In this document: piece after piece, positions 35,100 to 37,153 of the stretch | Numbering within the stretch: position 1 is the first letter of the stretch | Layout of the letters: each line of letters begins with the position of its first letter | From: Flavobacterium sp. | GTDB taxonomy: Bacteria > Bacteroidota > Bacteroidia > Flavobacteriales > Flavobacteriaceae | Length of the DNA stretch: 39,547 nt | Direction of reading: 5' to 3' | NCBI RefSeq assembly: GCF_017985075.1 | Contig: NZ_JAGNYF010000017.1 | Coordinates: forward strand, 1 to 39,547 | Notes under the pieces: generated by a model | Told to the model about the DNA's origin: nothing | Databases searched by the model: none | Seen by the model: the letters and a program-made list of their open reading frames with translations, nothing else | Program-made: the position numbers and the translations under genes

Positions 35100-35175
35100 G
35101 TGAGCGGCTAAATAATACAGAAAACCAATGGTTTGAGATGCTGAAAGAAGTTTAGAATTACAGGTTTGTATAGTT

Positions 35176-35185
35176 GTTAGCGGTT
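35176..35185 (+). repeat. Left box of cassette 1 (GTTAGCGGTT)
   Basis: GTTAGCGGT is the inverted partner of ACCGCTAAC at 35492-35500, on the other side of the 56-aa ORF. As in elements A and B a T precedes it, but no GC-rich stem arm is found to its left, so the element here is either degenerate or the edge of the array. Confidence 0.65.
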
Positions 35186-35284
35186 GTACTGCATCAAACT
35201 TTTAAATTTTGCTTCCAATTTTTAACTACTTTTTGAACTTCAATTTCCAATTTAGTAATTCTTTTAAAAATACTTTAGTAATTA

Positions 35285-35455
35285 TTATTTATGCAAAATT
35301 GCTATTATTAAATAAATAAAACCAAAAAATGTCAAACATAATCCAAGAAAAAATCCAAAACCACCTAATACAACTCTAAATAAAGTCATAGAAATTAATA
35401 AAAGTATAATTCCTAATGTGATTGCTAAAATTGAATTTTTAATTTCTTTGTTCAT
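35285..35455 (-). CDS. Small two-helix membrane protein, cargo of cassette 1
   Basis: A 56-residue ORF starting at ATG 35455 and ending in TAA at 35285-35287. The product is MNKEIKNSILA... followed by two hydrophobic helices (about 9-24 and 37-54) separated by a short MTLFRVVLGGFG turn, ending ILHK. A basic N terminus, uninterrupted frame and clear membrane topology support a real gene, although no homologue is recognised. It sits between the box pair at 35176 and 35491, with a 35-nt leader from the right box. A -7-like TATCTTTG inside element A could be its promoter. Confidence 0.55.
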   Translation of the reverse strand: MNKEIKNSILAITLGIILLLISMTLFRVVLGGFGFFLGLCLTFFGFIYLIIAILHK

Positions 35456-35490
35456 ATAATTTTATGGTTGTTTGTCGTCCACTGAGGCAT

Positions 35491-35628
35491 TACCGCTAAC
35501 GTTCCGGCGCTTGGCGAGGTTGCGAACTTCGGAACCGATTATTTTCTATCAAAGATAAAATTTTTTACGAAATGTAAACGTGAATTTACTACAAAATTTG
35601 CAATCTTGCCAAATGCCTGTTAGCGGTA
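35491..35628. repeat. Stem element A with perfect 10-bp terminal inverted boxes
   Basis: 138 bp. TACCGCTAAC (35491-35500) and GTTAGCGGTA (35619-35628) are perfect inverted boxes. Inside, arm 35506-35526 (starting GGCGCTTGGCGAGG) pairs with arm 35597-35617 (ending CTTGCCAAATGCC) over 21 positions: 16 Watson-Crick pairs, four G-T and one C-A. Five unpaired bases (GTTCC) lie after the left box, one T before the right. The loop of about 70 nt holds TATCTTTG on the minus strand (complement of 35550-35557). Confidence 0.85.
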
Positions 35629-35651
35629 GTTATTATTGATTAACTTTAACA

Positions 35652-36080
35652 CTATTCGCCAGGATACGTCCCTTGATTTAATTTCAAAGGCATTATACTT
35701 TCCTGATTATCATAGTTCGCGATTATTTCTAATGGTAAAGATTTATTTGTATGAATTTTAAATTTTGATATCCAATTTTCTCCAGATTGCTTGAAGCGTT
35801 TCTTTTTTGTATTACCATTTTCGACAAATTGACAATATACAATAACATTATTTAGTTTTAAATTTCCTTTATAATTTCCAGTGCTATCAATTTGCGCAAT
35901 ATTAACTCTTATAGTATAATTATGAATACTATCATTTTTAGTATTTGTTCTTTCCACACTATATGCCCAATAACATTCAGTATTTGGAATTGTCTTTAGT
36001 TTTTCAGGCACAGAAATTTCTTGTGCAAATGCATAAAATGAACAAAACAATAGCATATAATATTTCAGCAAACTTTTCAT
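35652..36080 (-). CDS. Exported protein of unknown function, cargo of cassette 2
   Basis: A 142-residue protein with a signal peptide (MKSLLKYYMLLFCSFYAFAQ, cut near residue 20) and a small beta-rich mature part with two cysteines (TECYWAYS, VIVYCQFVENG). No domain is recognised; it may be periplasmic or surface exposed. The ATG at 36080 starts the signal peptide. Boxes GTTAGCGGTA (35619) and TACCGCTAAC (36164) enclose it, with 23 nt between the left box and the stop codon and an 83-nt leader on the other side. All features fit an accessory gene carried as a cassette. Confidence 0.7.
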   Translation of the reverse strand: MKSLLKYYMLLFCSFYAFAQEISVPEKLKTIPNTECYWAYSVERTNTKNDSIHNYTIRVNIAQIDSTGNYKGNLKLNNVIVYCQFVENGNTKKKRFKQSGENWISKFKIHTNKSLPLEIIANYDNQESIMPLKLNQGTYPGE

Positions 36081-36163
36081 TTCTTTTTCTTTAAACAGTT
36101 TTTATGATGGAAATTAACTTTTTTTGATTTTAAAATTTGATTACTTCTTGTGCGTAAGATAAT

Positions 36164-36304
36164 TACCGCTAACGTGTCGCCGCTTAACGAAGTTACGTAT
36201 TTTCAACACTTTCGATTACGAATATAGATAAAATTTAGTTTCAAAAATTACCAATTCTGATAAATCCCAAACCCCGCAATTTCGTGAAACGGCTGTTGTG
36301 CGTT
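36164..36304. repeat. Stem element B with two different terminal boxes
   Basis: 141 bp. The left box TACCGCTAAC (36164-36173) and the right box GTTGTGCGTT (36295-36304) are not complementary to each other; each matches the box on the far side of its neighbouring ORF. Arm GCCGCTTAACGAAGTTACG (36179-36197) pairs with CGCAATTTCGTGAAACGGC (36275-36293), 19 positions with four imperfect ones. Five bases (GTGTC) follow the left box and one T precedes the right box, as in element A. Confidence 0.82.
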
Positions 36305-36320
36305 CGTTTTTTCTTTTTTT

Positions 36321-36344
36321 TATGTTTTGATTTATGTTTTGATT
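36321..36344. repeat. Two tandem copies of TATGTTTTGATT across the ORF stop
   Basis: A perfect 12-bp tandem duplication (36321-36332, 36333-36344) that spans the stop codon of the 212-aa ORF at 36332-36334, so its last residues may have been altered by slippage. Confidence 0.8.
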
Positions 36345-36970
36345 TCTATTTTGTTGTATAAGTTTATGCTTATTAAGCAAATCCAAATTAGGAATGAAAG
36401 AAAACTCAATTTTTGGATTACTGGTAGATATATAATTAATTCTTTGTTGTAATAAACATAATTATTTATTCCGACTATAAAAAGGTTAAATATTCCAAAT
36501 CTAAAAAGTCTGTTCCATTTTATTTTGTACAGAATAATAAATGCTCCGATTAATGTAATTACTCCAAAAAGTGAAGCGAGATTTGTTATTATGTCGTGAT
36601 ATTTTGTAAATATAAACATTGCAATAATCATTGATAATATTCCCGAAAGTTGAATAATATTTTTTGTTGATTTTCTTATGTTTAAGTTTCTTGGAAATAA
36701 AAACCAAAATGTAGAAAGCGTAAAACATAGAATTATCATTCCTGTTAAAGCAATTGGTCTTGCTGAATTTATTTTTCCGTTTATAGCTGTATCATTTAGT
36801 AAATTACACCAATAATTATTAATCCAACTAAATCCAATTGAGTTTTGGTCAATTTGTGAACCGCCTGGATAAAATTGTGTTGCTAAAATATAAAGAAAAA
36901 TGAAAATTATAGTTCCAAATACTGGTGTTAAAAACCAAACATTTTTTCTATTTTCTATTTTTTTACTCAA
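36332..36970 (-). CDS. Polytopic membrane protein, cargo of cassette 3
   Basis: A 212-residue protein with about six hydrophobic helices (about 12-32, 74-92, 104-121, 129-147, 157-173, 186-204). After the first helix it has YPGGSQIDQNSIGFSWINNYWCNLLND, an extracytoplasmic loop that resembles DUF998-like small membrane proteins, and TGMIILCFTLSTFWF follows; this resemblance is tentative. No in-frame ATG occurs before residue 70; the frame begins with TTG at 36970 (TTGAGTAAAAAAATAG), the only sensible start. Boxes GTTGTGCGT (36295) and ACGCACAAC (37016) enclose it. Function unknown. Confidence 0.7.
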   Translation of the reverse strand: MSKKIENRKNVWFLTPVFGTIIFIFLYILATQFYPGGSQIDQNSIGFSWINNYWCNLLNDTAINGKINSARPIALTGMIILCFTLSTFWFLFPRNLNIRKSTKNIIQLSGILSMIIAMFIFTKYHDIITNLASLFGVITLIGAFIILYKIKWNRLFRFGIFNLFIVGINNYVYYNKELIIYLPVIQKLSFLSFLIWICLISINLYNKIEIKT

Positions 36971-37015
36971 TTTTATTTTCTTAGTTTCTCATTTTCGTTC
37001 TGTTCCGCCAAAATG

Positions 37016-37113
37016 ACGCACAACTTGTATATATGCGAAACTTTCAAACTACTTTTATTCCAAGTTGGAAAGATTGGCGAAAGTTTTGTTTCGCATTATT
37101 AAAATCAAATATA
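37016..37113. repeat. Stem element C, terminal cruciform of the array
   Basis: Box ACGCACAAC (37016-37024) is the exact partner of GTTGTGCGT at 36295-36303. After 8 nt, ATGCGAAAC (37033-37041) pairs with GTTTCGCAT (37088-37096); AACTTTC/GAAAGTT (37039-37045, 37079-37085) is an alternative inner pairing, and TTCCAAGTTGGAA (37058-37070) is an apical hairpin. No GTT box follows on the right, so the array ends here. Minus-strand TATATTTG (complement of 37106-37113) fits a -7 element. Confidence 0.7.
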
Positions 37114-37153
37114 AAGAATTATTTTTAAACTTTTTTATAAGGACAACCCTATT

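Follow-up and report, generated by a model that had tools for sequence, protein, structure and literature searches.

The closest described relatives of the locus reported here are the integrons, chromosomal and mobile, served by the tyrosine recombinase IntI and their remnants, the clusters of attC sites lacking integron-integrases (CALINs). In their plan, an attI site adjoins a tyrosine recombinase, cassettes of one gene each are arrayed mostly in one sense, and the attC sites are imperfect palindromes that have two pairs of boxes, an asymmetric spacer left unpaired and a break at the GTT of the R' box; boxes pair within a cassette. The passages of PMC9668308 (citing Messier and Roy) and PMC8138268 that we drew on present the IntI-specific domain as a requirement for integron activity, and IntegronFinder, according to the former, identifies IntI by PF00589 plus this domain. 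For Bacteroidetes, the relevant portion of the IntegronFinder 2.0 survey (PMC9024848) reports that only In0 elements were found earlier, followed by one complete Salinibacter integron; a review, in the part available to us, includes Bacteroidota among the integron-bearing phyla (PMC8618304), and the eleven attC taxon models given in the consulted section of PMC8352920 include none for Bacteroidota. Here, we describe a platform that shares the integron plan, in 39,547 nucleotides of a Flavobacterium sp. (Bacteroidota; Flavobacteriaceae; assembly GCF_017985075.1, contig NZ_JAGNYF010000017.1, positions 1 to 39,547 of the forward strand), a stretch that we refer to as a whole as the window. We put the probability at roughly 0.88 that the window holds a small cassette array headed by an attI and belonging to a Bacteroidota integron-like system whose recombinase lacks the IntI-specific domain. 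Within the portion of the literature covered, with preprints and most subscription papers outside its scope, we recognised no description of these arrays with this recombinase.

The window is one contig, C26, of a 2.28-Mb, 112-contig genome that is 91% complete, and it carries housekeeping genes (G, C and L numbers are our handles for genomes, contigs and loci). An insertion of roughly 2 kb on its minus strand (35165..37153, ends approximate), which has no counterpart in the sister genome G062, separates tsaE from ald. Read along the minus strand from 37113 to 35176, the order is promoter-like box, attI, cassette 3, attC B, cassette 2, attC A and cassette 1. The attI (37022..37105) is an imperfect palindrome ending TATATACAAG|TT, with an inferred crossover between 37024 and 37023. 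Cassette 3 (36173..37023) runs from the start box TTGTGCG through an open reading frame (ORF) of 212 aa to the end box CGCACAA and attC B (36165..36303), both boxes being read in the sequence. Cassette 2 (35500..36172) is bounded by TTAGCGGT and ACCGCTAA, with a 142-aa ORF and attC A (35492..35627). Cassette 1 (35176..35499) has the start box TTAGCGG, a 56-aa ORF and the end box CCGCTAAC, and terminates in this R''-like box at 35183-35176, the remainder of its attC being absent. As judged from its sequence, this three-cassette array with its insertion site is an integron-like cassette platform.

What delimits the units are short boxes whose distribution is far from random. The CCGCTAAC/GTTAGCGG box occurs four times in the window, always within 35176-36173, where 0.28 copies would be expected in the window and none of 100 shuffles reached four. 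The TTGTGCGT box also has four copies, three in the array (36148, 36296 and 37016) and one elsewhere, against an expectation of 1.07; alone it is weak evidence, because 2 of 100 shuffles equalled the observed count. For a circular cassette cut open between G and TT, pairing is expected between the start box and the end box of that same cassette, and not with the box on the far side of the element. Over 99 consecutive pairs, the boxes that open and close the same cassette match on average at 5.28 of 6 positions, 71 pairs perfectly, whereas boxes across the same element (141 elements) match at 2.74 of 6; random pairing gives a mean of 2.60 and a maximum of 3.06 in 2000 draws. In the window, the boxes of cassette 2 pair 6/6 and those across attC B 2/6. 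The genes, too, keep a fixed sense relative to the element, with 88 sense, 8 antisense and 2 ambiguous among 98 bacterial cassettes.

A 10-base box search led from the window to contig C42 of the same genome, and a covariance model, R1, was built from twelve aligned elements, ten from C42 plus attC A and attC B. These two score 115 and 96 bits, respectively; scores of window and C42 elements are not independent, because both seeded the model, and independent relatives score as high, with an L142 element reaching 120.4 bits. For structure statistics, we took the best 150 of 189 R1 matches from 37 hand-chosen sources, in an alignment fitted to the model and hence favouring structure. In this alignment, 91.0% of 2992 cells are paired (66.7% in shuffles) and 671 cells show double changes (221 in shuffles), values that none of 500 shuffles attained, and sliding the partner columns by 1-3 lowers the pairing to 29-40%. 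The covariation spans 20 pairs, comprising R and L box pairs with an unpaired central spacer, as in attC. Spacers are asymmetric, with 2 nt on one side in 149/150 elements and 6 nt on the other in 136/150; the L' arm holds an extra base in 35/150, and the R''-L'' arm shows no consistent extra base in this model-fitted alignment. Folding energy alone is weak evidence for such elements, and covariation over 150 of them is stronger: attC A has z = -4.1 on the plus and -1.7 on the minus strand, and the attI palindrome -2.2 and -1.8. An exact-pairing scan of C42 found no usable elements, which made sense later, as pairing between an element's two R boxes is not obligatory. Among the 150 elements, GTT stands in register in 145, GTTRRRY in 10, RYYYAAC in 8 and both in 2, so that the canonical IntI R boxes are not what these elements carry.

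A first-pass annotation, made from the sequence alone, had proposed an integron-like plan with boxes that depart from GTTRRRY/RYYYAAC. Box counts against shuffles, covariation and the cassette rule bear out the plan, the core-box counts bear out the departure, and the covariance search that it suggested, run as R1, matches many relatives. Two of the three elements that it saw are indeed attCs, A and B; the third is the attI, matching recombinase-adjacent sites in relatives. Its view that the cargo is oriented opposite to the usual was mistaken: the array lies on the minus strand, so the orientation is the usual one, as in 88 of the 98 cassettes.

The model also shows how much of this material the window genome holds. 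R1 matches 19 elements there at E < 0.01, on C42, C26, C35, C90, C30, C89 and C39. C42, which could be mis-binned, is a 30-kb run (L010/L011, 1-30350) with about 38 plus-strand ORFs taken as genes, mostly small and many of them separated by elements. It further contains two attI-like sites, each preceded by a similar stretch of about 200 bases, of which a third copy lies near 14.2 kb.

In relatives, a palindrome ending TATATACAAG|TT or a close variant lies directly 3' of a recombinase gene and is followed by the first cassette, the same arrangement from which the window attI is identified. Sites without an adjacent recombinase occur in the window, on C89 and C42 of the same genome, and in G013 and G010. 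Across 16 aligned, hand-chosen attI sites (L080 and L095-L099, for example, were not among them), TATA and AGTT are invariant. The box TATATTTG, upstream of the window attI at 37106..37113 on the minus strand, is exact in 10 of these 16 and resembles what we take to be the -7 consensus; it may act as a Pc promoter. Another promoter-like box, TATCTTTG, lies inside attC A (35550-35557, minus strand) and is directed along the array.

The enzyme that heads such arrays in many relatives is a tyrosine recombinase, of 379 aa in G055, with a homologue heading the array of G025. Pfam finds Phage_integrase and, from residue 103-109 onwards in the two frames scanned, a SAM-like domain, with nothing above cut-off N-terminal of it; the length of this N-terminal region can be given only as roughly 70-100 residues, because the true starts are unsure. 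The closest solved structures are XerC-like and XerA. Alignment to IntI4 is interrupted between IntI4 residues 180 and 243, and the spacing from K to H in the strict motif is 64-65 in 23/23 relatives, compared with 106 in 5/5 IntI references; at 40 named Bacteroidota loci it is 64-65 in 35, 63 and 69 in one each, and unreadable in three. Thirteen of the proteins score 197-217 bits with TIGR02249 (cut-off 265), with which three IntI score 471-488, and 193-232 bits with NF040815 (cut-off 220), some falling above and some below. Counting labelled rows in a tree of 93, the 27 array-linked enzymes and the 5 IntI each make up one side of a branch supported at 100/100; a further 61 rows bear no label, and these, which include some of other phyla, may fall among either. 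By sequence, then, the array-head recombinase is not an IntI: the IntI-specific domain is absent from the relatives' enzymes. Separately, a large gene stands near the array head at L055 5041-6729 (G025, an AIPR family protein) and at L042 16796-18553 (G055, a likeness judged by eye).

How tightly are elements and enzyme linked? Searches over many genomes scored 150, 55 or 13 candidates per genome (13 in the count over 247 genomes), and because so few were scored, the element counts are lower bounds. R1 matches at least 36 of 60 genomes (own and relatives, E <= 1e-4) and at least 114 of 247 in the phylum set, whose genomes, that of the window included, share the window's phylum, presumed from named relatives to be Bacteroidota. 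Nine genomes of other phyla gave no match at E <= 0.01 in a scan that returned two from the sister G062. A protein search (E <= 1e-60) found the recombinase in 23 of the 60 genomes; in the stretches taken around the 23 genes, an R1 match lies to the array side of 14, that of L092 being weak (E = 0.09), and for eight of the remaining nine a contig end is no more than about 3.2 kb away. Over the 247 genomes, 67 have both, 47 elements only, 13 the recombinase only and 120 neither (Fisher p = 6e-17, a test that ignores kinship). Among 23 same-contig cases picked by hand from the matches listed, the array lies on the expected side in 20, at distances of up to 15 kb. A scan of named genomes, limited to the best 80 of 589 candidate loci, of which 40 were sorted as Bacteroidota by title, yielded R1 matches (E <= 0.01) at 16, all among those 40, in Flavobacterium, Algoriphagus, Cyclobacterium, Aquiflexum, Winogradskyella, Alkalitalea, Pontibacter and unnamed Bacteroidota. 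All 28 plus-strand matches at these loci lie downstream of the recombinase in the same sense; L164 is divergent. The Flavobacterium phage filifjonk9-1 (L018 583-5259) carries eight plus-strand R1 matches among methyltransferase and other genes.

Comparison of relatives also reveals gain and loss. In the sister G062, whose Ald is 96% identical, the tsaE-ald gap spans 126 bases and lacks the platform. Of 28 gaps (from 30 loci of 61 genomes, our own and one cut locus left out), 27 are free of the motifs in a regular-expression scan, and the one short match, in L123, was judged due to chance. Eight gaps longer than 400 bases (L118, L123, L124, L126, L129, L130, L134 and L135) appear, by eye, to hold another gene, suggesting that this gap has been used more than once. 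At the junction compared with the sister genome, one junction in all, no target-site duplication is evident by eye. The window genome has a second attI platform without an adjacent recombinase at thyA-folA (L106 3949-7089). There, the attI sites of G000 and G062 are about 95% identical and the content diverges just after them: in G062 a single cassette follows, its attC scoring 32.9 bits, and in G000 a longer, different content with one R1 match. Immediately before TT the two sites are not alike, one reading AAG|TT and the other ATT|TT.

Whole cassettes recur as well. G011 contains a 480-base cassette twice, identical and non-adjacent, with a left break that cannot be placed because the left flanks of the copies are also alike. 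Two arrays of G022 have a cassette in common (99.9% over 710 bases), and others are common to G022 and G055, from different families (77%), and to G009 and G010 (84%). In three of four shared-cassette pairs, left-flank identity stops 2-5 bases before TT, which places the break at the GTT box, near G|TT; it is not resolved to one base, because the residual identity falls in letters that are often common to attC ends. At L044 13181-14046 and L047 4661-5465, nearly identical cassettes have different inner attC parts, as if these had been replaced separately.

These comparisons bear on what else had been said of the locus. The absence of a recombinase from the window holds, and none of the array kind was found in the window genome; as a description of the system it fails, since a tyrosine recombinase does belong to it and heads arrays in relatives. 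The enzyme that the first-pass annotation advised seeking co-occurs with the elements in 67 genomes. Its suggestion of a distinct cassette system of Bacteroidota holds, with R1 matches in at least 114 of 247 genomes of the phylum and in none of nine elsewhere. The two patterns that it named as speaking against cassettes, the same order in all relatives and target-site duplications of a transposable element, were not what the tsaE-ald gaps and the one junction compared displayed.

The cargo of the window is small. The 212-aa protein of cassette 3 (36332..36970, minus strand) is hydrophobic by eye and gave nothing in a Pfam scan at E 0.1; homologues occur in 12/200 genomes of the genus, itself included, the best other at 35% identity, so no recent copy of cassette 3 was found. 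The 142-aa protein of cassette 2 (35652..36080, minus strand) has a signal-like N-terminus by eye and nothing above the family cut-off in a Pfam scan, and the 56-aa protein of cassette 1 (35285..35455, minus strand) is hydrophobic by eye. Scans of the window found no Rfam match at the gathering score and no tRNA.

Plasmids carry related material. On a Chryseobacterium plasmid (L232 13044-22215), a recombinase 67% identical to that of G025 is followed downstream by four R1 matches, with an IS110 transposase and a group II intron in the stretch; another Chryseobacterium plasmid has the recombinase and no R1 match. A Flagellimonas plasmid (L234 7908-8753) has a dihydrofolate reductase family gene between two R1 matches, one of them weak, and erm(F) and a recombinase of the array type nearby. 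An Empedobacter plasmid (L019 5891-6020) carries an element 71.6% identical by blastn, without an R1 match at E <= 1, and then a gene between TTGTACGC and GCGTACAA boxes.

Several observations weigh against an integron-like system with a dedicated recombinase. Elements and enzyme are often found apart: a recombinase at E <= 1e-50 is missing from 47 of the 114 genomes with elements, elements are missing from 13 of the 80 with a recombinase, and at 24 of the 40 named Bacteroidota recombinase loci, some of them short stretches, there is no R1 match. The L093 recombinase has no R1 match in the 9-kb stretch examined, and that of L233 has no elements nearby. In the same-contig cases, the element is on the other side in G237 and far off in G130 and G195. 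The window genome itself, 91% complete, yields no recombinase of this kind at E <= 1e-60, nor at E <= 1e-50 with another query; its four PF00589 matches fall in three proteins. At the level of the elements, attC B folds no better than shuffles (z = 0.18 on both strands), 28 of the 99 cassette box pairs are imperfect, the elements of phage filifjonk9-1 run opposite to the genes (0/3 sense), and copies of some shared cassettes are unlike in their inner attC, which a simple cassette model does not explain.

Could these be plain attCs of an ordinary IntI integron remnant, a CALIN, moved by a true IntI elsewhere? The overall plan is the same, and one weak R1 match (26 bits) falls on Polaribacter phage P12002L, where a CALIN is predicted according to the relevant part of PMC9892861. 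Yet the window genome has no IntI above the TIGR02249 cut-off, the enzymes adjoining arrays lack the IntI domain, both canonical core boxes occur in 2 of 150 elements, and R1 finds nothing in the nine genomes of other phyla, including the sources of L199, L216 and L205, whose recombinases score 471-488 bits with TIGR02249; we therefore regard this reading as very unlikely. A different possibility is that the array-head recombinase is a passenger, with cassettes moved by Xer proteins or by homologous recombination between similar sites. The 47 genomes with elements and no detected recombinase would suit it, as would the differing inner attC parts of shared cassettes; against this, the position and polarity of the enzyme beside arrays recur across distant branches of the recombinase tree, the attI lies directly after its gene and the breaks fall at the GTT box, leaving the idea improbable. 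Miniature inverted-repeat transposable elements or repetitive extragenic palindromes that lie between small genes by chance would likewise be palindromic, intergenic and present in many copies per genome, but neither the cassette rule and the attI nor the fixed gene sense in 88/98 units, the exact duplication of a unit and the lack of an evident target duplication at the one junction compared would be expected of them, and we give this account almost no credence.

We nonetheless keep the favoured integron-like system apart from the IntI integrons, since two features that define the latter, the domain and the canonical R boxes, were looked for and found wanting. Unlike IntI, the recombinase here lacks the IntI-specific domain, falls outside the IntI branch and has a region of some 70-100 aa before the SAM-like domain; the R boxes of the elements keep GTT/AAC plus a following purine, the R''-L'' arm shows no consistent extra base in the model-fitted alignment, and attI platforms without an adjacent recombinase occupy several sites of the genome. 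Other neighbours are less close. NF040815 (recomb_XerA_Arch, 'site-specific tyrosine recombinase/integron integrase') is a protein-family model that is silent on these arrays. In the 'Integron-like' subgroup of simple tyrosine recombinases, compared by description only, the IntI insertion is not fully conserved, and the portion of PMC8138268 consulted describes no Bacteroidota arrays. Cassettes integrated at attG (Loot 2024, as cited in the part of PMC12444791 that we used) likewise lie outside a main array, whereas here an attI-like palindrome is inserted with them.

Under this explanation, each cassette would consist of one gene and a folded recombination site, attC, with short complementary boxes at its ends (TTNNNNNN ... 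NNNNNNAAC) that would pair in the free circular cassette. A dedicated XerA/IntI-like tyrosine recombinase without the IntI-specific domain would cut G|TT and insert cassettes at attI, so that the newest cassette would adjoin attI, and the promoter-like box upstream may drive it. Of this scheme, comparison of genomes shows the cassette units, the attI, breaks no more than a few bases away from G|TT, the linkage of arrays to the recombinase and the differing content at a conserved attI, and from these we infer catalysis, use of a folded single strand, a circular intermediate, integration at attI and promoter activity. The window platform would then be frozen, or else an enzyme that escaped detection in the incomplete genome would serve it in trans.

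Finally, we would like to place the platform into a wider context. It seems to us moderately likely that Bacteroidota run a second kind of integron, in which an XerA/IntI-like recombinase without the IntI-specific domain recognises the folded attC otherwise, perhaps via its own N-terminal region. On this account, the system would have been overlooked because integron finders require the domain, and attI platforms would have spread as integrase-free satellites, of which the window holds one. If true, a cassette system without the IntI-specific domain would make the recognition of folded attC sites testable in a second enzyme, and R1 matches in at least 114 of 247 genomes of the phylum point to a large, uncounted pool of mobile genes.

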